DNA from: Chloroflexota bacterium
GTDB taxonomy: Bacteria; Chloroflexota; Anaerolineae; 4572-78; J111
DNA: 64,000 nucleotides
Direction of reading: 5' to 3'
Assembly (NCBI GenBank): GCA_016860845.1
Contig: BOKF01000046.1
Span: 1-64,000 of the forward strand
Shown here piece by piece: positions 10,921-62,441 of the stretch; within the stretch, counting starts at the first letter, position 1; every line of letters begins with the position of its first letter. Made by a program: the position numbers and the translations under genes. Below the pieces are notes generated by a model that saw nothing but the letters and a program-made list of their open reading frames with translations, was not told the DNA's origin and made no database searches.

Positions 10921-11799
10921 ATGAGCAAAAAACACGTCCTGATTGTAGACGATGCCAAAGATATTCTCTTCCTGCTGATGCACAGTATCAAAAGGTTGGG
11001 GCCGGAATATGAGGTCACAACTGCTCACGACGGAGCAACAGCCCTGGAACTGATTCAAAAACAAAAATTTGACCTGATCATTACCGATTATATGATGCCC
11101 GGGATGACCGGGGTAGACCTGGCCCAGGTCGTGCGCAAAGTTTCGCCGGAAACACAAGTGGTGCTGATGACGGCCCACGACACCCGCGGCATGCGCAACA
11201 CCGTGGAGACGCTGCATCTTGGCGGATATTTGGGAAAACCCTTCACCGTGCCGGAGATTATGGAAGTGGTGCAGCGGGCGATCTCCCAGACTCATCAAGC
11301 AGTGGAAACACCTCACCCGGATACAGCCGGTCTGAGCTTGAATCGGGCCGTGGACGAGCGTCTGGAAGTCCTGCGCAGCAAAACCGGCGCTCACTTTGTC
11401 CTGTTAGTCAGCGCCAGCGGCCACCCCCTCCGCGTTGTTGGAGAAACCAACCGGGCCAAGACTTCCCGTTTGGCTGCTTTTGTGGCGGCTAACTTCCTGG
11501 CTGTGACCGAACTGGCCAGCCTCCTGGGCGATAATGAGTCGATCTTCAAATCAAGTTATTACGAAGGGAGTAAATATAATATTTATGCTTATGACATCAA
11601 CGGAGAGTTTCTGCTAGCCGTGGTTTTTGGCACGCAGGGAAAACCCGGTACGATTTGGTTTTATACCAAACAGGCCGGCGTAGAGTTAGCTGAGTTGTTG
11701 GCTAAAGTCACTCAAGGCGCAGCAACGGACGACAACAGCATTAATGTGGCCGACGATTTTGCCGGCATGTTTGGGGGCGAGAAAGATAGTGACCATTAA
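10921..11799 (+). CDS. Response regulator fused to a roadblock/LC7-like domain (first of a tandem pair)
   Basis: 292 residues. Residues 1-120 are a receiver domain: LIVDDAKD holds the acidic pocket, IITDYMMPGMTG has the phospho-accepting Asp, MTAHD the conserved Thr/Ser, and GKPF the conserved Lys. After a linker, residues about 140-255 look like a roadblock/LC7 fold (VLLVSASGHPLRVVGE, then FKSSYYEGSKYNIYAYDI, LLAVVFG), a regulatory partner domain of small Ras-like GTPases such as MglA. There is no DNA-binding domain, so output is probably by protein interaction. It overlaps the next gene by one base (TAATG), and the two are paralogues. No GTPase or partner kinase lies beside them. Confidence 0.85.
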   Translation: MSKKHVLIVDDAKDILFLLMHSIKRLGPEYEVTTAHDGATALELIQKQKFDLIITDYMMPGMTGVDLAQVVRKVSPETQVVLMTAHDTRGMRNTVETLHLGGYLGKPFTVPEIMEVVQRAISQTHQAVETPHPDTAGLSLNRAVDERLEVLRSKTGAHFVLLVSASGHPLRVVGETNRAKTSRLAAFVAANFLAVTELASLLGDNESIFKSSYYEGSKYNIYAYDINGEFLLAVVFGTQGKPGTIWFYTKQAGVELAELLAKVTQGAATDDNSINVADDFAGMFGGEKDSDH

Positions 11800-12617
11800 T
11801 GACCAATAAGCGGGTCTTGATTGTTGATAATGATAAAGACATCAGTTTGATGCTCCAGCACAGCCTACGGCTGCTGGGACCTGAGTATGAAGTTGTTACC
11901 GTAACCGATAGTGTGACCGCCATCAGCTTGATTGAAAAAGAGTCATTCGCCGTGGTCATTACCGATTACATGATGCCGGTGATGACGGGTATAGACTTGG
12001 CCCTGGTAGTGCGTCGTATCTCCCCGGACACGCAGGTTATTTTGATGACGGCCTATGGCTCCACTAATTTGCGTGATACCAGCAAATTCCTGGGCCTTGA
12101 TGGCTTTCTGGACAAGCCTTTTCCCCTGGAACAAGTCCAGGAGATTGTTAAACGGGCGGTAGCCCAGACTCGCGACCAGGAACCACCGCCGCTACCCCCG
12201 CCCGATAAACCTCGACTATCGCAAGCCGTTTATGAGCTATTGCGGACGTTGCAAAATAATTCGGGCGTACGCTGCGTGTTGCTCATTACCGCCGATGGCC
12301 GCCCGCTGCAGGTTGTCGGCCAAACCGCCGGTTTTGAAGTGGCCAGTGTCAGCGCCCTGGTGGCTGCCAACTTTCTGGCTGCGGCTGAACTGGCTAAACT
12401 GGTCGGCAACCTGACCATCTTCAAATCCAGCTATTACGAGGGCGAGAACTATAATATTTATGCCCATGATGTGAATGAAAAATTGTTGTTAGCCATCGTT
12501 TTTGACGCCCGGCAAAAACCCGGCTCAGTCTGGTTCTATACCAAACACGCGGCCAGCAGTCTCGCTAAATTGTTAAGCCAGGCTGCTGCCTCCTCCCCTG
12601 CCCCTAACCAGGCTTAA
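11799..12617 (+). CDS. Response regulator fused to a roadblock/LC7-like domain (second of a tandem pair)
   Basis: 272 residues. Same architecture as the gene before it: receiver domain with LIVDNDKD, VITDYMMPVMTG, MTAYG and DKPF, then a proline-rich linker (PPPLPPPDKPR) and a roadblock/LC7-like domain with the conserved FKSSYYEGENYNIYAHDV. The receiver pocket has DND in place of DDA of the first copy; the phospho-accepting Asp remains. Its ATG overlaps the upstream stop, so the two products are probably made in equal amounts and may form heterodimers, the usual state of roadblock proteins. The stop lies nine bases from the convergent stop of the Cas4-like gene. Confidence 0.85.
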   Translation: MTNKRVLIVDNDKDISLMLQHSLRLLGPEYEVVTVTDSVTAISLIEKESFAVVITDYMMPVMTGIDLALVVRRISPDTQVILMTAYGSTNLRDTSKFLGLDGFLDKPFPLEQVQEIVKRAVAQTRDQEPPPLPPPDKPRLSQAVYELLRTLQNNSGVRCVLLITADGRPLQVVGQTAGFEVASVSALVAANFLAAAELAKLVGNLTIFKSSYYEGENYNIYAHDVNEKLLLAIVFDARQKPGSVWFYTKHAASSLAKLLSQAAASSPAPNQA

Positions 12618-12626
12618 CCCACTTCT

Positions 12627-13181
12627 TCATACCTCGTTCCATCTGATCAAAGCATCATCACAGACATAAGCGAAACCACACGCCGCGCATCTGCCGGGCT
12701 GCTGGTGGCTGCGCCCAACGGTTTCCGCCAGACGGGCCTGGCGCATCGCGGCCATTGTCTCCAGCAATTCGTGGCGAAGCTCCGGGGTAAAATCAACTTC
12801 GTACAGGGCATCGGCGTATTTGAGCAGCCCGTGAGGTGGGGTGCGCCCGGTCGTTTCTTCAACTAACAGACAGTAAGCGGCTAATTGCAGCAAGTGGCCC
12901 AAATAAGGGACTTGCGGAGCCTTGCTAGATTTAACTTCCACAGGGATGATTCCTGCTTCGGTTTCGATCAGATAATCCGGTTTGCCCCTGAGCTGGTAGG
13001 TTTTGGTGTAGAAAGGCTGTGGGTTGGGGCGCCAATCGGCGCTGTCGGCGTAAACCAGCCGGCCCGCCGGGACTCCACTTTCCAGGCGCAGCCGCCTGGA
13101 ACGAGTCGAGGCCAGCCAGCCGAAAAAAAGTAAGATCAGAGCCAGCGTAAAAAGCCAGAGCATATTACCATCAGATGTCAT
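12627..13181 (-). CDS. Cas4/RecB-like nuclease, C-terminal half, membrane-anchored
   Basis: 184 residues. A transmembrane helix (LWLFTLALILLFFGWLA) is followed by a PD-(D/E)XK nuclease core: GKPDYL (Asp69), IPVEVKSSK (Glu82, Lys84), QLAAY (Gln99-Tyr103, the RecB/Cas4 motif), and a C-terminal cysteine group CAACGFAYVC (165, 168, 174). In Cas4 these three cysteines bind a 4Fe-4S cluster with a fourth near the N-terminus. That fourth cysteine and the catalytic histidine are missing here but occur in the upstream gene (13332-13613). The first ATG at 13181 lies inside a MITE-like arm; the internal ATG at 13163 (MLWLFTL) lies outside it and may be the native start. Probably cuts or trims DNA at the membrane; no CRISPR array or cas1/cas2 is present. 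Confidence 0.8.
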   Translation of the reverse strand: MTSDGNMLWLFTLALILLFFGWLASTRSRRLRLESGVPAGRLVYADSADWRPNPQPFYTKTYQLRGKPDYLIETEAGIIPVEVKSSKAPQVPYLGHLLQLAAYCLLVEETTGRTPPHGLLKYADALYEVDFTPELRHELLETMAAMRQARLAETVGRSHQQPGRCAACGFAYVCDDALIRWNEV

Positions 13182-13327
13182 TTCGAGGCCAAAGGCCGAG
13201 AAATCTCCAGAGCGTAACGGTTAAAAGTTGTAGCTGGATAAAATTTATGGGCAAAGCCAACCATTTATCAGCCACTTGTTGAATAAGACAAGGTATTGGA
13301 GATTTCTCCCTTCGGTCGAAATGACAT
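13175..13327. mobile_element. MITE-like element (153 bp) between the two Cas4-like halves
   Basis: Imperfect terminal inverted repeats of about 30 bp: ATGTCATTTCGA... ending GAGAAATCTCC (13175-13208), and GGAGATTTCTCCC... ending TCGAAATGACAT (13298-13327). No coding capacity. The length is a multiple of three, and both flanking Cas4-like frames are in the same register across it, though stops lie inside the element and a TAA lies just outside it. Confidence 0.75.
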
Positions 13328-13331
13328 ATTC

Positions 13332-13613
13332 TTATTGTAGTAAGTACCCTAACAAAGCCATAGCCAGCAGGATTATTCCCCCAGCGAACAAAAAAACGCT
13401 GGCTTGACGCCAGCGTAGAGCCGCCCGAACTTGATAGCTGTGGTGGCGATGAGTTTGGATACCGTGAGCCAGGACAGCTTGATTGTTAGCCGGGATTTGT
13501 TTAATTGTGCCCAGCCACCAGGAGCGATGGCAAAAACTGTACTGGTTCAGCTCACTGGCCCGGATTAAGGGCAGGCTTTCAGCCGGGTCGGGAGGTGAGG
13601 GAGGCGCAGCCAT
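13332..13613 (-). CDS. Cas4-like N-terminal half (Cys/His motif) with C-terminal membrane helix
   Basis: 93 residues. The region IRASELNQYSFCHRSWWLG resembles the N-terminal segment of Cas4 and related RecB-family nucleases; Cys28 would be the first cluster cysteine. AHGIQTHRHH (His50-His58) resembles the GxxxH helix that supplies the catalytic histidine. The protein ends in a transmembrane helix (VFLFAGGIILLAMALLGYLL) and stops. The remaining nuclease motifs are in the gene 150 bp downstream, which begins with its own membrane helix. Together the two carry a complete Cas4 residue set, so they probably act as one enzyme of two chains, or derive from one gene split by insertion. It starts one base after the translin stop, so it is in the translin operon. 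Confidence 0.7.
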   Translation of the reverse strand: MAAPPSPPDPAESLPLIRASELNQYSFCHRSWWLGTIKQIPANNQAVLAHGIQTHRHHSYQVRAALRWRQASVFLFAGGIILLAMALLGYLLQ

Positions 13614-13614
13614 A

Positions 13615-14322
13615 TTAATCGCCTGACTCGCCGGCCCACTCGTCGCCGGGCTGGGGAATATTCAAGGTATCGCTCATGCCGATGCGCTGCTCAAACTGGC
13701 TCAGGGCAGCCCGCATCGCTTCCTGGCGTACCGCTGTAGTGACGTCGCCGCGGGTGCGTTCCAGCACGCCGCGGACCATGTCGGTGTTGCGGCGCAATCC
13801 GCCCGTAATCGCGTCAGAGAAGTCAACCGTGACCAGAACGCTGTAAATCTCGTCCATACTGCTCAGAGTACGTTCGGCCAGAACCACGTTGCCCCGGCGC
13901 AGCGCGTCGAGGGCAAAGCGGCGCAGTTCCCCGGCCGCCTCGGCCAGACCGTTGAGATAAGCGGCATATTCCACGTTTAACGCCTCGGGGGCGGGCAACG
14001 GCTCTTCCAAAATAACGGCGCGGGTAATGTGCGCCTCGGCCAGCTCTTTCAAGGCATCCTGAGTATAGCCAGCGTAGTAAACATCGGGGTAGTTCTGGGC
14101 GTCGGTAATCATTTGGGCGGCAATATCGCGCGCCGTTTGCAGCAGGGCCTGTGCCTCCCCGTCATCCCCCCGTTGCGTCGCCCGAATCGAGTTGGCGCAG
14201 TGGCGGATAAGTTCCCGTGAACGGGCTAGAGTATCGTTACGAACCGTGCTTTTGGCTTCAAAAGTCTGATTGATGCGATCAATGATTAATTGTAGCTGTT
14301 GCAAGGGAGTCTCCTCAGGCAA
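13615..14322 (-). CDS. Translin-family protein
   Basis: 235 residues, close to the family length. The C-terminal half carries the translin signature: EYAAYLNGLAEAAGELRRF, GNVVLAERTLSSMDEIY, LRRNTDMVRGVLERTRGD. Translins are all-helical ring-forming nucleic-acid-binding proteins; with the partner TRAX they form the C3PO endoribonuclease in eukaryotes, and archaeal members can cleave RNA. Bacterial members are uncommon. The catalytic acidic residues of TRAX cannot be assigned by eye. Its stop is one base from the start of the Cas4-like N-terminal half, so co-translation is likely. Upstream is ssb, separated by a terminator. The neighbourhood points to single-stranded nucleic-acid processing. 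Confidence 0.85.
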   Translation of the reverse strand: MPEETPLQQLQLIIDRINQTFEAKSTVRNDTLARSRELIRHCANSIRATQRGDDGEAQALLQTARDIAAQMITDAQNYPDVYYAGYTQDALKELAEAHITRAVILEEPLPAPEALNVEYAAYLNGLAEAAGELRRFALDALRRGNVVLAERTLSSMDEIYSVLVTVDFSDAITGGLRRNTDMVRGVLERTRGDVTTAVRQEAMRAALSQFEQRIGMSDTLNIPQPGDEWAGESGD

Positions 14323-14426: not shown

Positions 14427-14846
14427 TCAAAATGGAATTTCGTCCTCAGTCAAACCCGGATCTTCGGCGGGAGCGCCCGGTCCACTATTACTGTAACTGC
14501 CGCCGCTATCGCCGCCTCGACCACCCAAGAACTTGATTTCATACGCAGTGACTTCATAGGAGCCGTGAGGTTTGCCGTCTTGCCCGGTCCAAATGTTGAT
14601 TTCCGGCTTCAATCGGCCTTCAACCAACACCTGGCGGCCCTTACTGAGATATTGGTTACAAGTTTCAGCTTGTTTACCCCAGACGGTCACTCGAAACCAG
14701 GTGGTTTCTTCCTGAGGTTGCCCGTCATTTCCAACCCACTTACGATTGGTAGCCACTCTAAAATTGGTCACCGCCTGGCCTGAAGGGGTATAACGCATTT
14801 CGGGGTCACTCCCTAAGTTGCCCACTATTGTCAACTTTTGGTACAT
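14427..14846 (-). CDS. ssb: Single-stranded DNA-binding protein
   Basis: 139 residues. OB-fold of about 105 residues with the bacterial SSB start (YQKLTIVGNLGSDPEMRYTPSG), FRVATNRKW and WFRVTVWGKQAE. A Gly/Ser-rich linker follows and the acidic tip ends EDEIPF, which recruits replication and repair enzymes. Acts as a homotetramer on ssDNA. It has its own promoter and terminator and is flanked by the ECF operon and the translin/Cas4 genes; a second ssb elsewhere in the genome cannot be excluded. Confidence 0.95.
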   Translation of the reverse strand: MYQKLTIVGNLGSDPEMRYTPSGQAVTNFRVATNRKWVGNDGQPQEETTWFRVTVWGKQAETCNQYLSKGRQVLVEGRLKPEINIWTGQDGKPHGSYEVTAYEIKFLGGRGGDSGGSYSNSGPGAPAEDPGLTEDEIPF

Positions 14847-14945: not shown

Positions 14946-15764
14946 TTAAGAGCGGGTTGAGATTTTTTTATGATGATAAGCCGCTAAAAATCCTTCTGCC
15001 GTATAGACTACCTGCCCTAATTCCAGGCGGCTGGCCAAACGGGCCAGTTGAGGCGGCTGGACGTAGGTACTCTCCAAAATTTCTTCTTGCGCAAAAACGC
15101 TTTCGGCGGGGCCGTCAAGCAGCACCTGGCCCTGGCCCATGACGATGATTCGTTCAAAATTTTCGGCCACAAAATCAATGTCGTGACTGATGGCAATGAC
15201 GGTTTTGCCTCGCTCCCGCAGACGCCGGATGAGGCCGGCCAGATGCTGCACGCTGCGATGATCCTGGCCGGTGGTTGGCTCGTCGAGGACAATGACCGGC
15301 GTATCCATGGCCAGGATGGCGGCAATCGCCACTCGTTTGCGCCAGGTCGGGGTCAAATCATAGGGATTGACCTCGACTTTGTCCGTTAGGTCCAAAAGGG
15401 CCAGGGCTTCGTCTACCTGGGCTTCAATACGCTCCGGGGGAAGGCCAAGATTGGTGGGACCAAATTTAACCTCATCGCGGACATTGCCCTTAAAGAGCTG
15501 ATCGTCGGGGTTTTGAAAAACGTAGCCTACTCGCGCCGCCAGTTTCGCCACCGACGTTTCATGAGTAAGCCAATCGCCGATGCGGACAGCGCCACGAGTG
15601 GGCTGCAGCAACCCGTTGAGGTGACGCACCAGGGTCGTTTTGCCGGCGCCGTTCTGGCCGACAATAGCCGCCTGCTCACCCGGCTCAAGAGTCAACGACA
15701 CATCGCGCAGGGCCTCAACACCGGAGGGGTAGGTGAAGTGTAAGTTGTCAATCCAAATCTGCAT
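14946..15764 (-). CDS. ecfA2: ECF transporter ATPase with degenerate signature motif
   Basis: 272 residues. Walker A GQNGAGKTT, Q-loop FQNPDDQLF (the ECF-type Q motif), Walker B VIVLDEPTTG and the H-loop SHDID are intact. The ABC signature, normally LSGGQ, reads LTPTWRKRVAIA here. In a heterodimer of two ATPases such a change disables one of the two composite ATP sites, because each signature acts on the Walker A of the partner. The partner gene (15792-16664) has a normal LSGGQQQR. Last gene of the nucleoside hydrolase-S-T-A-A' unit, 27 bases after its partner. Confidence 0.9.
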   Translation of the reverse strand: MQIWIDNLHFTYPSGVEALRDVSLTLEPGEQAAIVGQNGAGKTTLVRHLNGLLQPTRGAVRIGDWLTHETSVAKLAARVGYVFQNPDDQLFKGNVRDEVKFGPTNLGLPPERIEAQVDEALALLDLTDKVEVNPYDLTPTWRKRVAIAAILAMDTPVIVLDEPTTGQDHRSVQHLAGLIRRLRERGKTVIAISHDIDFVAENFERIIVMGQGQVLLDGPAESVFAQEEILESTYVQPPQLARLASRLELGQVVYTAEGFLAAYHHKKISTRS

Positions 15765-15791
15765 GAGGAAGTACTCGAAAAATCATCTGGG

Positions 15792-16664
15792 TTAATCTAC
15801 GTTCATCTGTGGACCGATGAGAGCAGCTTTAAGGCCCGTCTCTGCTTCTTCCAGCGTCACCGGCAAAGGCTGTCCAACCGGCCAGCCACCTTCCGCTTTA
15901 ACCTGGCGGGCCACGCTGGTGTAGCGAGTTTGGCCGATGTGATAGATTTCCAACAGCGGCGAGGTCAGAACCTCGGCGGGAGAGCCGCTTAGAACCAATT
16001 GGCCGTCGGCCAGCACCAGCACCCGGTCGGCAAAGGCAGCGACCCACTCCAGCTTGTGTTCGGCCATGATGACTGTCATGCCCTCCCGGCTCAACTCGCG
16101 GATAACGGCGAAAACCTCGCGGCTGCCCAGCGGGTCAAGCTGGGAGGTTGGCTCATCCAGGACCAGTACTTGCGGCTCCATCACCAGCATCGAGGCCAAA
16201 GCCACGCGCTGCTGTTGGCCTCCAGACAGGGCGTAGGGCGAGCGGTCGGCCATGTCGGCGATGCCGGTCATAGCCATAGCCCGTTCGATGCGCGGAGGCA
16301 TCTCCTCACGGGGCACGCCCAGGTTTTCCAGGCCAAAGGCAATTTCATCGTAGACGCTAAATTTGGCCCCGGAAATTTGATTGAAAGGATTCTGAAAAAC
16401 CAGCCCGCTGACCAGCACAATATCTTCCAGGTGATGGTCTTTGGTTTCCAGGCCGGCCACGTGGACCCGCCCGGCCAGCTCGCCCTGGAAAAAGTGGGGC
16501 ACAAAGCCGGTCAGGGTGTAACAGAGAGTGGATTTGCCCGCGCCGTTGGCTCCAATCACGGCCACAAACTCGCCGCTCTCCACCTGGAGCGACAGATCGG
16601 CTAGGGCCGGCTGCTTGGTGTGGGGGTAGCGGTAGGTTAGATTCTCGATTTCGATGATGGCCAT
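15792..16664 (-). CDS. ecfA1: ECF transporter ATPase (canonical)
   Basis: 290 residues. Walker A GANGAGKST, Q-loop FQNPFNQI, signature ALSGGQQQRVALA, Walker B VLVLDEPTSQLD and switch AEHKLEWV are all complete. It would pair with the second ATPase to energise vitamin or nucleoside uptake through EcfT and the S component. The C-terminal 60 residues after the ATPase core are a short ECF-type extension. A 40-base spacer to ecfT includes a 7-bp tandem repeat. Confidence 0.93.
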   Translation of the reverse strand: MAIIEIENLTYRYPHTKQPALADLSLQVESGEFVAVIGANGAGKSTLCYTLTGFVPHFFQGELAGRVHVAGLETKDHHLEDIVLVSGLVFQNPFNQISGAKFSVYDEIAFGLENLGVPREEMPPRIERAMAMTGIADMADRSPYALSGGQQQRVALASMLVMEPQVLVLDEPTSQLDPLGSREVFAVIRELSREGMTVIMAEHKLEWVAAFADRVLVLADGQLVLSGSPAEVLTSPLLEIYHIGQTRYTSVARQVKAEGGWPVGQPLPVTLEEAETGLKAALIGPQMNVD

Positions 16665-16672
16665 AGCACCTC

Positions 16673-16697
16673 AAGGATGAAGGCGGAAGGATGAAGG
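16673..16697. repeat. 7-bp tandem repeat (AAGGATG type) between ecfT and ecfA1
   Basis: AAGGATG, AAGGCGG, AAGGATG, AAGGATG: the same heptamer order as the coding block at 2604-2636. It overlaps the spacer where the ribosome site of ecfA1 would be. Confidence 0.8.
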
Positions 16698-16704
16698 ATG
16701 AACG

Positions 16705-17481
16705 TCATAACCAAAATCTTGATCCAAGAGCCAATAGAGTCAGGACAATCAGGCCCCCCCGAAGGGCGTTTTGGCCCGGCGAGTCAGGAATTTGCAGCAG
16801 GCTGGTCTTGGTGCGTTTGGCCTTAAAGGCGCGGGCTTCCAGGGCGATGGCCCGTTCTTCTACGTCTACCAACGAGCCAAAGACCAGTGGGCCGACCAGC
16901 GGCAGCAAGGCGCTGAAGCGCCGGCGCAGGCTGCCCTGCGTTTCCAGGCCGCGCGAGCGCTGGGCGTCAATGATGGTATTGGCCTTGTTGCGCATTTGCG
17001 GGAGAATTTGCAGGGTGCTGACGATGATGTAGGTCAGTGAGGGCGACACCCCCCGCTGGGTCAGGGCGGTCATCAAGGCGCTGGGGTGAGTGCTGAGGAG
17101 CAATAACAGAAACGAGCCAACCATGTTCATAATCCGGCTGGCGGTGACATAGGCAAACTGCACACCTTCCAGCTTGACCGAAAAAATCCAGAAGCTAAAC
17201 AGGACTGTTTTGCCGCCCGGATAGAAGAGGCTATGCATGGCAAACAAGAAAGCGGTCAGCGGTAGAATCAGGCGAAAGGTGGTGCGGATAAATTCTCGGC
17301 TGATGTTGCCCCAAAGGCTGAGCGGCAGCAGGATAAGGACAAAAATAAGCGTGGCCGTCCAGTAGCCAGGCCCCAAAAAGCCGATCAGGATCAGGCTGAA
17401 GGTCAGGGTCAGCTTGGTCAGAGGATTGAGGCGATGGAGCGGGCTGTCGCGATGGATATAAAAACTGAGTTTATCCTGCAA
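16705..17481 (-). CDS. ecfT: ECF transporter transmembrane component
   Basis: 258 residues. Five to six membrane helices and the coupling region ends in AQRSRGLE, one of the two Ala-Arg-Gly-type helices by which EcfT couples to both ATPases. The N-terminus (HRDSPLHRLNPLTKL) is the usual EcfT start. It links the S component to the ATPases. Upstream, the S component gene is 85 bp away. Confidence 0.92.
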   Translation of the reverse strand: MQDKLSFYIHRDSPLHRLNPLTKLTLTFSLILIGFLGPGYWTATLIFVLILLPLSLWGNISREFIRTTFRLILPLTAFLFAMHSLFYPGGKTVLFSFWIFSVKLEGVQFAYVTASRIMNMVGSFLLLLLSTHPSALMTALTQRGVSPSLTYIIVSTLQILPQMRNKANTIIDAQRSRGLETQGSLRRRFSALLPLVGPLVFGSLVDVEERAIALEARAFKAKRTKTSLLQIPDSPGQNALRGGLIVLTLLALGSRFWL

Positions 17482-17565
17482 AAGAGAAACCTCCGCTTGG
17501 GAGTAAAAATTACCCCCATCGTCAAGGGCCGAGGGGCGGGGGTGTCAGCGGCTGGGTCCTATGGC

Positions 17566-18162
17566 TCAAGGGATGACATTATCTGAACGGGAAAATCGCG
17601 AGAGGTAGCGCAGTGATAACCCCCGCGTAATAAGCCAGGCGAACAAACAGGTTAGAATCTTGTCGAGCGGCTCTACCAAAAAATTGGTGGTCAGAACTGC
17701 ATTAAACAGCTCCTGGCCGGTTTGCAGTAAATAGGCGGTGATGAAGGTTGAGCCGCTGCTGGTGATGCCGCCAAATAGGTAGACGCCGATGGGGGTTGAG
17801 ACAATCACCGCCGCCAGCGCCACAAAAAAACCGGCGATAATGACTTTCCACCAGACCTTGAACAGGCCAAAATTGGCGCAAATACCGGCGACCAGGCCGA
17901 TGGCCGCCGCCACCGGAAACCAGGGCAGCGCGCCGGGGTCAACAATCAGGCCCCAGATAATATTCGACAAGGCCCCGGTGAGCGCGCCGGCCCACGGCCC
18001 GGCCAGCACTGCGACCAGCACCGTCCCAATCGAATCCAGGAAGACCGGCAGCTTGAGCAGAACCACAATTTGGCCGATGACTATGTTAATGGCAATTGCC
18101 ACCGGGATGAGGACTAGGGTGATGGTGCTGAAATCCCTTTTTAATTGTGCTGCAACACTCAT
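17566..18162 (-). CDS. ECF transporter substrate-binding S component
   Basis: 198 residues with about six membrane helices, the S-component size. The region VFLDSIGTVLVAVLAGPWAG is a conserved S-component stretch, and GGITSSGSTFITAYL follows in a later loop. These integral membrane proteins bind the substrate and topple in the membrane when EcfT and the ATPases fire. Substrate is not evident from sequence; the adjacent nucleoside hydrolase suggests a nucleoside or base. Ribosome site AAAGGGG lies upstream of the start at 18162. Confidence 0.85.
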   Translation of the reverse strand: MSVAAQLKRDFSTITLVLIPVAIAINIVIGQIVVLLKLPVFLDSIGTVLVAVLAGPWAGALTGALSNIIWGLIVDPGALPWFPVAAAIGLVAGICANFGLFKVWWKVIIAGFFVALAAVIVSTPIGVYLFGGITSSGSTFITAYLLQTGQELFNAVLTTNFLVEPLDKILTCLFAWLITRGLSLRYLSRFSRSDNVIP

Positions 18163-58679: not shown

Positions 58680-61600
58680 TTATCCCAATAGCCGGCTGCT
58701 GAGTTCCTGCACGCAGGCCAGGTGACGGCTCAGATGGTCGCGCAGTTGAGCTGTTTGGCGGCCATAATCCAGGCGGCGGGCCAGAAAAGCGAATTCCTCG
58801 CTATCGGCTGGGGGCACGGTCAGGTCTTTGGCATTGCCGCGGACCATGCGCAGCGCGTTAATTAAACGGCGTAAAAAAATGTGAGCCTCACGCAAGTGGT
58901 GGTAATCGTTGGGCGGGATGATGCCGGCGGCGGCCAAGGCCCGCACGGCTTCACGGGTATTGACCAGGCGCAGGCCAGGATTGGCCGGACCATGCGTAAT
59001 TTGCAAACCCTGCACCAGGTACTCCACGTCTACCAGCGCGCCGGGGCTAAACTTGGCGTTGATGGTCCCGGCGGTGACCAGATGTCTGACCTGCCGCTCG
59101 CGCATGGCCCGCATCGCCGCTGCATCAAAGGGCGCGCCGCTGTAGATCAGTTCATCCCGCAAGCGCACAATCTGACCGCCCAGGTCGGCGCTGCCGCCGA
59201 TGGGCCGCAGTTTGACCAGGGCCTGCCGTTCATACGGCCAGGCATCGCCGTCAGGTCCAAAGTAGCGCTGGAAGGCGTCCAGCGATACGGCCATGCTGCC
59301 GGCCTTGCCGTAGGGCCGCAGGCGCAGGTCCACCTCAAAGACCCCCTCCTGCCTGGCCCGAATAGCCTGGTTGACCTCCTGGACCAGCTTATCGTAAAAC
59401 TCGGCGGTCGTGATGACCCGCGGGCCGCCCGTCTGGCCGTTGCCGCTGTAAATAAACATCAGCTCAATGTCCGAAGCGAAGCCCAACTCCCGCCCCCCGG
59501 CTTTGCCCAGGGCGCAGATGCTCAAAATCGAGGGCTGACCGTTTTCCAGGTAAGGCGTTCCAAAGTGCGCCCGCAGCTCAGCCTCACAGATGCGGCAGGC
59601 CGCCTCAACCACCACCTCGGCCAGGTCGGTCAACTCTTGCGAGAACTGCCCAAATTTGGCAATGTGCCCCTGGATCTGGCGCATGTCAATCCGGAACATC
59701 TCCCGGTCCTTAAAGGCGTTCAGCACGGTGCGGCGAGCCTCCCCGGCGGCGGCTGTCTCCAGCGCGGCGTCCAACTCTGCCTGTAACTGCTCTTTGGACT
59801 TAGCCGTAGCTAACGCACCGACATCCCGGACCACCGGGAAGAGGTTGGCGTGCTGCATGCGCAGAAAATCGTTCCACAGGAAATCACTCACCCCCAGCAG
59901 CCGGGCCAGGGTATCCAGCACTTCCGGGCGTTCCAGCGAGGCCAGTTCGTCGGGCCAATCGGGCCGCATAAAGAGCTGGCCCAAAAATTCTCGAAAGTGC
60001 AGCAGGGCCAACTCCGGGTTGGGCGAGCGCGGCAGCAAGTGGGTAAAATGTTTGGTCAGCACAGTAGCGACCCGCAGTTCGCGCTGTTTCTGGGGGGAGG
60101 TGATTTTTTTGCCATGAGCGTCGCTGACGTAGAGCGTATCCCGGACTTGCTGGCCGACGGTGTCAACCATCATGCGGCTGATGTTGATCCGATTGAGCGC
60201 CAGGGCGTTGGTCAGCCCGTACAAAAAGCCGACCGTATCCGGGGCATCTATCCGCAGGACCGTGTGGTGAGCCGAACTCTCATTATCAATCTCGATATCA
60301 ATTGGATAAAGCCTTTGTGGAGCCGCCGTGCTTTCGCGCAGGGCATCACCCACGCGCCGGGCCAGCTCGCCCTGCGCTTCGCGTTGTTTGCCAGCGGCCA
60401 GTTGCTGCACCAACGACTCCAATTCCTGGGCATAGCTGGACCAGAACTCCGCTGAGGACGGGACAGCCCGCACGGTAAATTCGTCCACAATTTTTTTAAG
60501 GGTGTCACCCTGGCTAAGGGGCGGTGAAACATAACGCGATTGGGCTGAAGAACGCCGTCGTTTCCGGGGAGCCAGAGCAGGAGCCGGGCCGCTGGGTGGG
60601 TCGTAGGTAAAAACACGCCCATCTACAATGTCAATGCCGTGGACAAACAGCAGGCCGCAAATCAGGCTCAATTCGCCCAGATAATCATAGCCGACAATCG
60701 TTACCCGCCAGTGCTGCGTGTCGAGCGGTGTGGCTTCGACCTTGACCTGGTTCTGCTCATCCAACTGTTCCACGAGGCGGGTGTGGCGCTGAATGTCCTC
60801 ATCGCTAAAGGTGGCGGCGTAGGAGGGGTGCATGCGCACCAGATGCGGCACCACGTCGGGTATGGTTTGGGGTGAATTGGGATCAGTCATCGTTGACCTT
60901 CGCTCCTCCTCAAAATGGTGCTGGTAAATGGCTCGAATAACGGCGCTATGCTGCTGGTAGCGAGCCATAAATTTGCTCCCGGCCTCCGGCCCTTGAAAGC
61001 CCAGGCGGCGGGCCAGGTGTCCGAGCGCCTCGGCATCAGCGGGCAGGAGGTGAGTTTGCTGGTAGTGCATCAGTTGCAGATGGTGTTCCACCGTGCGCAG
61101 GAAAACGTAACCATCCCCCAGGGCGCGGTATTCGTCGGCGGAAAGCAGGCGGCTGGCTGCCAGCCGGGCTAAGGCATCGAGGGTTTTGGGGCTGCGCAGT
61201 TCAGGCTGCCGGCCGCCATGTTCGAGCTGTAAATATTGAACCACAAACTCAATATCGCGGATAGACCCCTGGCCCAGCTTGACCTCGCCCCATTCCTGGC
61301 CGCGCTGGCGCAGCCTGGCTTCTATCCGCTGTTTCAGCGCATGCACTTCCGTCCGGGCTACCGCCCCGTTTGAGTCAAAGATGAGTGGCTGCGCCCGGTG
61401 CAGAAACTCCTGGCCCATGGCCTGGCTGCCGGCAATGACCCGCGCTTTGAGCAGCGCCTGTTTTTCCCACAGGCTGGCGTGGTTGGCCAGGTAGGCCAGG
61501 TGTCCGTCCACCGAAGAAACCAGCGAGCCATCCCGGCCCCAGGGCCGCAGGCGCATATCTACCCGGTACAGAAAGCCCTCGCCGGTGACCCGCACCAGCA

Positions 61601-62441
61601 GGTCAATCAACCCCTGGCCCAGGGAACGGTAGGCCGGGGCATCGGCGGTGACCAGGAAGAGCAGGTCAATGTCGGAACTGTAGTTGAGTTCCTCCCCACC
61701 GAGTTTGCCCATGGCGATGACCACAAAATTATCCGGGGCCGGCCCGGATTGCTGACCGGCAACAGCCAGGCAAGCTTGCACCAGGCTGTCGGCCAGGTAG
61801 CTGAGCTGCTCGGTCACCGTCGGCAGGTCGGCCAGGCCCAACAGATCGCTCGCGCCGATGCGCAGCAGTTCCCGGCGCTGAAAGCGGCGCAGCGCGTCGA
61901 GAAGAGGCGAGGCGGCAGGGAGAAGAGGCGAGGATGCGGAGAGGCGAGGCGGCGAATCTTTCTTCGCTTCCTCGCTTCCTCCTCTTTTCGCCTCATCAAT
62001 CACGGCTTGAGCTTCTGCCAGCAGTTGGGCGGCGCTTTTGGGCCGGGTCAGGTGTTTGTAATGTGTAAGCTGGTCAAAATATTCGGGATGGCGCAGCAAT
62101 ATTTCGGTCAGGAATTGGCTGCCGGCAAAGAGAGTTGTCAGAATTTCCAGGGTGCGCGGATACCGGGCCAACTGCCGCAGCAAAGCCGGTTGGTCGGCGC
62201 TGTTGCCGATAAATCGCTCAAAATTAACCAGGGCGCGGTCGGGGCTGGCGGCATTATCCAGGGCAGGCAGCAGATAGGGCCAACAGGCCGCAAAGTCAGG
62301 CTGCCGGGCCAATCGTTGGAGGGTGCGCTGCGCAGCCGGCGGATCGGCAAACCTGATCGAGGCTGACCAGGGGGCTACATCTGCCTGACTCACCTGAGTC
62401 AGGGCCTGCTGGCCGGCCTGGGGGACAGTGCTTCTCATCAT
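58680..62441 (-). CDS. glnE: GlnE-type glutamine synthetase adenylyltransferase with two ACT domains between the catalytic halves
   Basis: 1253 residues, against about 950 for GlnE. N-terminal catalytic half with MGKLGGEELNYSSDIDLLFL (Asp pair near 257-259), C-terminal half with LGKAGGRELGFASDIELMFI (D-x-E) near 985-1000, both with the DLRLRPWGRDGSL/DLRLRPYGKAGSM motif. Between them are two ACT-type regions: WRVTIVGYDYLGELSLICGL (about 565-600) and VLRIDAPDTVGFLYGLTNAL (about 690-750), as in GlnD, which senses glutamine. So the protein may sense glutamine itself and adenylylate or deadenylylate glutamine synthetase. An 8-bp repeat array encodes a linker near residue 160. Start choice is uncertain: the -10 is only 10 bases before the ATG. 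Confidence 0.92.
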   Translation of the reverse strand: MMRSTVPQAGQQALTQVSQADVAPWSASIRFADPPAAQRTLQRLARQPDFAACWPYLLPALDNAASPDRALVNFERFIGNSADQPALLRQLARYPRTLEILTTLFAGSQFLTEILLRHPEYFDQLTHYKHLTRPKSAAQLLAEAQAVIDEAKRGGSEEAKKDSPPRLSASSPLLPAASPLLDALRRFQRRELLRIGASDLLGLADLPTVTEQLSYLADSLVQACLAVAGQQSGPAPDNFVVIAMGKLGGEELNYSSDIDLLFLVTADAPAYRSLGQGLIDLLVRVTGEGFLYRVDMRLRPWGRDGSLVSSVDGHLAYLANHASLWEKQALLKARVIAGSQAMGQEFLHRAQPLIFDSNGAVARTEVHALKQRIEARLRQRGQEWGEVKLGQGSIRDIEFVVQYLQLEHGGRQPELRSPKTLDALARLAASRLLSADEYRALGDGYVFLRTVEHHLQLMHYQQTHLLPADAEALGHLARRLGFQGPEAGSKFMARYQQHSAVIRAIYQHHFEEERRSTMTDPNSPQTIPDVVPHLVRMHPSYAATFSDEDIQRHTRLVEQLDEQNQVKVEATPLDTQHWRVTIVGYDYLGELSLICGLLFVHGIDIVDGRVFTYDPPSGPAPALAPRKRRRSSAQSRYVSPPLSQGDTLKKIVDEFTVRAVPSSAEFWSSYAQELESLVQQLAAGKQREAQGELARRVGDALRESTAAPQRLYPIDIEIDNESSAHHTVLRIDAPDTVGFLYGLTNALALNRINISRMMVDTVGQQVRDTLYVSDAHGKKITSPQKQRELRVATVLTKHFTHLLPRSPNPELALLHFREFLGQLFMRPDWPDELASLERPEVLDTLARLLGVSDFLWNDFLRMQHANLFPVVRDVGALATAKSKEQLQAELDAALETAAAGEARRTVLNAFKDREMFRIDMRQIQGHIAKFGQFSQELTDLAEVVVEAACRICEAELRAHFGTPYLENGQPSILSICALGKAGGRELGFASDIELMFIYSGNGQTGGPRVITTAEFYDKLVQEVNQAIRARQEGVFEVDLRLRPYGKAGSMAVSLDAFQRYFGPDGDAWPYERQALVKLRPIGGSADLGGQIVRLRDELIYSGAPFDAAAMRAMRERQVRHLVTAGTINAKFSPGALVDVEYLVQGLQITHGPANPGLRLVNTREAVRALAAAGIIPPNDYHHLREAHIFLRRLINALRMVRGNAKDLTVPPADSEEFAFLARRLDYGRQTAQLRDHLSRHLACVQELSSRLLG
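61902..61972. repeat. 8-bp-like tandem repeat (GAGGCGAG) inside glnE
   Basis: GAGGCGAG-type octamers (with GCGGCAGG, GATGCGGA variants) over about 70 bp. They encode DSPPRLSASSPLLPAASPLL in the GlnE N-terminal half. It is the reverse complement of the CCTCGCCT array at 25407-25462, so two unrelated proteins share similar peptides. Confidence 0.8.

Follow-up and report, generated by a model that had tools for sequence, protein, structure and literature searches.

A Cas4-like nuclease probably encoded as two membrane-anchored subunits in Chloroflexota

The stretch analysed here (the window: 64,000 nucleotides, positions 1 to 64,000 of contig BOKF01000046.1 in assembly GCA_016860845.1, from a Chloroflexota bacterium) carries two neighbouring genes, the N-half and the C-half, which probably encode two subunits of one Cas4-like nuclease of the PD-(D/E)XK, iron-sulfur (Fe-S) type; we put the probability of this reading at about three in four. 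An initial annotation had described a Cas4-like nuclease in two membrane-anchored halves behind a translin gene, with a miniature inverted-repeat transposable element (MITE) between them. The list of open reading frames agrees with its placement of both halves, the translin-like gene and ssb, and with its one-base gap, the N-half beginning one base past the translin-like gene:

12627-13181, (-) strand: C-half (C-subunit) open reading frame, 184 amino acids (aa) from ATG 13181
12627..13163, (-) strand: likely native form of the C-subunit, 178 aa from ATG 13163
13175-13327, strand not assigned: MITE-like inverted-repeat element, 153 bp, in the spacer between the C-half and N-half genes
13332-13613, (-) strand: N-half (N-subunit), 93 aa
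13615-14322, (-) strand: translin/Trax-like gene, upstream neighbour of the N-half, lineage-specific
14427-14846, (-) strand: ssb, upstream of the translin-like gene

Conserved residues of the two halves

A scan of contigs with the C-half found 214 relatives, the best 80 of which were kept as loci; by record these belong to Chloroflexota groups, with L040 and L066 given as 'bacterium' only, and the organism names visible among the listed homologues are those of Chloroflexota. After iteration with hidden Markov models an N-half was placed upstream of the C-half, on the same strand, in 60 of the 80 loci. The aligned rows are a selection from these loci (39 of the 60 N-halves and 42 of the 80 C-halves). 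The 184-residue frame from ATG 13181 exists as annotated, but the native start is likely ATG 13163, giving 178 aa, because the relatives begin there (13 were read, 172-181 aa, starting at or near this codon) and because ATG 13181 sits in the terminal repeat of the MITE. C-half residue numbers count from the 178-aa start; adding 6 gives the numbering of the initial annotation.

In the aligned N-halves C28, W32, G51 and H55 are the sole invariant columns, so that the N-subunit reads as a first Fe-S cysteine (C28), W32, a G51-x3-H55 motif and a hydrophobic helix at the C-terminus. The C-subunit has the reverse arrangement, with a hydrophobic helix at the N-terminus followed by D63, E76/K78, Q93/Y97 and the cysteines C159, C162 and C168, all of which are among its invariant columns. 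The PD-(D/E)XK motif and QxxxY are thus both present, while the conserved cysteines of the C-half number three only, and four Fe-S cysteines are reached only across the two chains, one from the N-half and three from the C-half. The invariant columns in both halves imply that the Fe-S ligands are split 1+3 and that the active-site motifs are shared between the chains. Together with the complementary profile matches described below, they bear out the proposal that a complete Cas4 residue set is spread over two genes.

Complementary parts of one fold

The C-half matches PF01930 at 37.4 bits, above the Pfam cut-off of 22.7, and TIGR00372 at 63.2 bits, slightly below the cut-off of 65; C-half proteins carry the source annotation 'CRISPR-associated Cas4'. 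The N-half matches the same two profiles below threshold (13.6 and 17.0 bits), at their very starts (positions 3-44 and 2-48), and finds eight PADLOC models at E <= 0.01, every one of them Cas4. The PADLOC Cas4 models are matched in complement, as in PDLC01250, where the N-half covers positions 2-49 and the C-half 51-167 of 168. The best solved match of both half profiles is the same chain, 8d3l_I, a type I-C Cas4, with the N-half on residues 6-54 (E 0.024) and the C-half on residues 102-201 (E 8e-8). A joint structure model, built as a tethered read-through chain of both halves, shows the whole Cas4 fold, its best structural matches being 8d3l again and the Cas4 part of the Cas4/Cas1 fusion 7mi4.

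Each half has its own hydrophobic segment at the join (mean Kyte-Doolittle hydropathy of at least 1.6 over 19 residues), found in 59 of 60 N-halves and 79 of 80 C-halves, in agreement with the transmembrane helices initially proposed; the N-half frame of L002 lacks a hydrophobic helix. Positive residues are biased to the nuclease side of the segment in 58/60 N-halves and 80/80 C-halves, which is consistent with soluble parts in the cytoplasm, although the test is a weak one, since little sequence lies outside the segment (median 3 residues, and none in the C-halves).

The two halves also occur together. Among 301 Chloroflexota genomes compared (C-half at >= 95 bits, N-half at E <= 0.001), each half is found in 86: both in 79, the C-half alone in 7, the N-half alone in 7 and neither in 208, and all 60 genomes with a C-half of at least 190 bits have an N-half. 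Of the seven with a C-half alone, G043, G145, G240, G292 and G299 show an N-type stretch in their fetched loci (G285 and G312 were outside these five); of those with an N-half alone, G030, G059 and G097 have weaker C-type matches, G083 has none, and G173, G235 and G302 owe their place to weak N matches (21.8-23.1 bits) inside longer frames. The halves lie within 1.5 kb of each other in 70 of the 79 genomes. In the remaining nine they are apart (two of these pairs share a contig, at distances of 0.9 and 2.8 Mb), an arrangement that the initial annotation had counted against its proposal; since both halves are kept there, obligate linkage is refuted and partnership is not. Of the 80 loci, 20 have no N-half near the C-half; the genome has one elsewhere in 17 and none was seen in 3; some of the 17 may represent one locus broken in assembly (the N-half of L084 lies near a contig end, and the C-half of L061 has less than 1 kb upstream). 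Another gene stands between the halves in 22 of the 60 loci (for example L023:4097-4897 and L032:4323-4967), an L,D-transpeptidase (YkuD) in 10 and a HEAT-like protein in 12, the latter label resting on sub-threshold Adaptin_N matches. A decayed second copy in its genome, L102 (G249, contig C30), has a stop interrupting the C-part. Neither half gave a relative confirmed by tblastn on viral contigs (4 and 72 pattern hits), and at that sensitivity there is no sign of viral spread.

Single-chain forms without the MITE, which the initial annotation had suggested looking for, are missing from the nearest relatives (no open reading frame contains both halves in the 80 loci) and occur naturally in Ktedonobacteria:

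L116, 422-1411, (-) strand: fused form
L112, 853-1911, (+) strand: fused form

In these and in the listed proteins (P0121-P0143) the order is N-part, two hydrophobic helices, C-part. The L116 protein has 438 homologues, of which 120 were listed. At least 21 of these, 320-339 aa long, are fused, as is one more of 276 aa, and nearly all the other matches listed are of C-half size (about 182-202 aa); the names shown for the fused proteins are Reticulibacter, Dictyobacter and Ktedonobacteraceae. On a tree the fused label requires 8 changes, at least 2 of them forced by well-supported branches. In the mixed alignment (A4) the N rows were cut before the helix. When the N-part of the L006 read-through was used to look for fusions, it gave one candidate, not significant; it was an unsuited query.

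Profile matches, natural fusions, co-occurrence and the structure model support the view that the N-half and C-half genes encode complementary pieces of a single Cas4-like fold and that each brings a membrane helix of its own. Several observations weigh against it. The profile matches of the N-half are individually weak; the model shows a tethered read-through chain and not two free chains, with the halves paired in only 6 of 77 rows; and the co-occurrence counts ignore phylogeny and come from genomes of unstated completeness. By eye, D, E and K are kept in 2 of 21 distinct fused proteins (P0132 and P0137) versus 31 of 34 split rows, and GxxxH is absent from the aligned fusions. A decayed copy in G030 (L105) no longer has the D or the E-x-K motif. 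Finally, Cas1 is commoner in genomes with a C-half (66/86) than in those without (59/215).

Proposed assembly and relation to known Cas4 proteins

In many Chloroflexota the two membrane-anchored proteins appear to have a single active site and a single Fe-S cluster between them. The sequences show that the N-subunit carries the GxxxH helix and the first of the Fe-S cysteines, and the C-subunit the D, E-x-K and QxxxY motifs with the other three cysteines. The two hydrophobic helices are predicted to pair as a membrane hairpin, with the soluble parts of both chains on the cytoplasmic face, where the halves would close into a complete Cas4 fold with the Fe-S cluster held across the chains, and the pair would then be an active nuclease. 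Less certain is a housekeeping role at the membrane on single-stranded DNA ends, in repair or on incoming DNA, as opposed to CRISPR spacer acquisition. The neighbouring ssb and recN genes and Cas4 biochemistry are the grounds on which we suggest, speculatively, both the substrate and the role. Doubtful is the further idea that the split is itself functional, two inactive membrane subunits becoming active only on meeting, with the cross-chain Fe-S cluster, and forming a phylum-wide redox- or membrane-gated nuclease that would process single-stranded DNA, either incoming or at repair ends, at the cytoplasmic membrane.

The pair resembles the Cas4 family (COG1468/PF01930/TIGR00372), including the solo-Cas4 of Chloroflexi, in its PD-(D/E)XK and QxxxY motifs, the Fe-S cysteine pattern and the modelled fold, and differs in being two polypeptides with the cysteines divided 1+3, a hydrophobic helix per chain and no adjacent cas genes identified. 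The solved Cas4 chains of 8d3l and 7mi4, the closest to it in structure, are by contrast single soluble polypeptides in a Cas1-Cas2 complex. Other nucleases of Fe-S or RecB-like type (AdnA, EXO5, Dna2 and the Argonaute-associated Cas4, ACE1) are less similar than Cas4, and by title none is a two-chain membrane protein. The 2017 survey of the family finds solo-Cas4 'present and monophyletic' in many Chloroflexi, gives all Cas4 members four conserved cysteines and leaves the role of Cas4 outside CRISPR open (Hudaiberdiev et al. 2017, PMC5704561); the words 'transmembrane', 'split' and 'translin' are absent from its main text. We found no earlier report of the two-piece membrane-anchored arrangement: literature searches, which covered a minority of subscription papers and no bioRxiv preprints, listed no account of a Cas4 that is two-chain or membrane-anchored and no paper joining Cas4 and translin.

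If the two-subunit reading is correct, two membrane-anchored polypeptides would together build the active site and the Fe-S cluster of a Cas4-type nuclease, which would explain why C-half proteins have three of the four cysteines. Assays of C-half proteins would then require the partner gene, Cas4 function outside CRISPR would gain a simple two-gene test, and a DNA nuclease would be located at the membrane, beside ssb or recN depending on the lineage.

Alternative readings and the gene neighbourhood

The initial annotation had joined translin to the two halves in one system; on this reading translin, Cas4N and Cas4C would form a dedicated membrane complex for processing RNA or DNA. Of the 80 loci closest by C-half, 24 have translin next to the N-half, the two genes mostly overlapping by a few bases or lying a few bases apart; the order is translin-N-C every time, and 12 of the 24 also have ssb upstream. 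In addition, 82 of the 86 genomes with a C-half have translin somewhere. Such a system is supported in part only: of 75 genomes compared, just 9 have translin no more than 3 kb from the N-half, and translin is common without the C-half (85 of 215 genomes; 167 of 301 overall). We therefore consider such a complex unlikely, and the translin-like neighbour is best described as a separate, phylum-widespread protein whose linkage to the split nuclease is lineage-specific. The protein in the window, taken alone, falls under the Pfam cut-off (22.1 of 25.9) and under that of NF011160 (262.8 of 291), while the profile of its family matches the archaeal Trax-like AfTrax (3zc1) at 121.6 bits over profile positions 8-191. 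E93, E96, E128 and E132, which may correspond to the catalytic acidic residues of Trax-type RNases, are invariant in 25 translin-like sequences.

Downstream of the C-half, on the same strand, lie NAD kinase in 36/80 loci and RecN in 29/80. A DUF3467 gene is found upstream on the same strand in 15/80 (for example L005:2643-3215).

A role in trans for the pair in CRISPR adaptation or another defence system we hold to be similarly improbable. Cas4 is known as an adaptation nuclease (PMC5704561), and the excess of Cas1 among genomes with a C-half, given above, favours such a role, but this correlation may stem from lineage as well as from a real link, and no Cas1 was seen in 20 of the 86. Cas1 and the C-half share a contig in at least 14 genomes, 34 kb to 3 Mb apart among the matches listed. 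The window contains no repeat family with CRISPR-like spacing, and 10 neighbouring proteins of the window match no Cas model in PADLOC (E <= 1e-5), in line with the initial remark that no CRISPR genes are near. By these distances and the PADLOC result the gene does not sit inside an adaptation module with cas1 and cas2; the recurrent neighbours identified are ssb, NAD kinase, RecN and YkuD.

It is very unlikely that the N-half is a separate membrane protein which merely resembles the start of Cas4, beside a self-sufficient solo-Cas4 encoded by the C-half. The weak N-half matches and the nine genomes with separated genes would fit this, but the Cas4 cysteine and GxxxH are among the few invariant N-half columns, all eight PADLOC models found are Cas4, natural fusions exist, the co-occurrence is near one-to-one and the C-half conserves three cysteines only.

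That the MITE recently broke one membrane Cas4 gene here, leaving two pseudogene halves, is almost certainly wrong: the element lies exactly between two halves in one frame and one-chain forms exist in Ktedonobacteria, but the closest relative (L001, 98% identical) already has separate halves, 13 bases from stop to start, in different frames and with no MITE at the site, none of the 80 nearest relatives joins the halves, and other genes stand between them in over a third of the paired loci. The shared reading register reported initially is correct (N-half, C-half and the intervening stretch lie in one frame, with three in-frame stops including that of the N-half itself); the MITE as splitter is rejected. 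Judged from these loci, Chloroflexota widely carry the split as a native arrangement, and the MITE entered the spacer later. The arms of its inverted repeat are at 13175-13186/13316-13327. In the related genome G001, which is that of L001, the element has 51 matches, almost always to one of its ends, and because these places are many and dispersed it belongs to an abundant repeat family.

Beyond the locus, a tandem pair of receiver-domain proteins (10921-12617, (+) strand) is convergent with the C-half gene; Pfam also assigns a Roadblock/LC7 domain to the second, and the first looks similar by eye. By eye, too, the region 14946-18162 on the (-) strand resembles the gene set of an ECF-type transporter, with two ABC ATPases and two membrane proteins, one T-type and one small, and a 1253-aa protein at 58680-62441 on the (-) strand is glutamine synthetase adenylyltransferase-like, with ACT-like stretches mid-protein.
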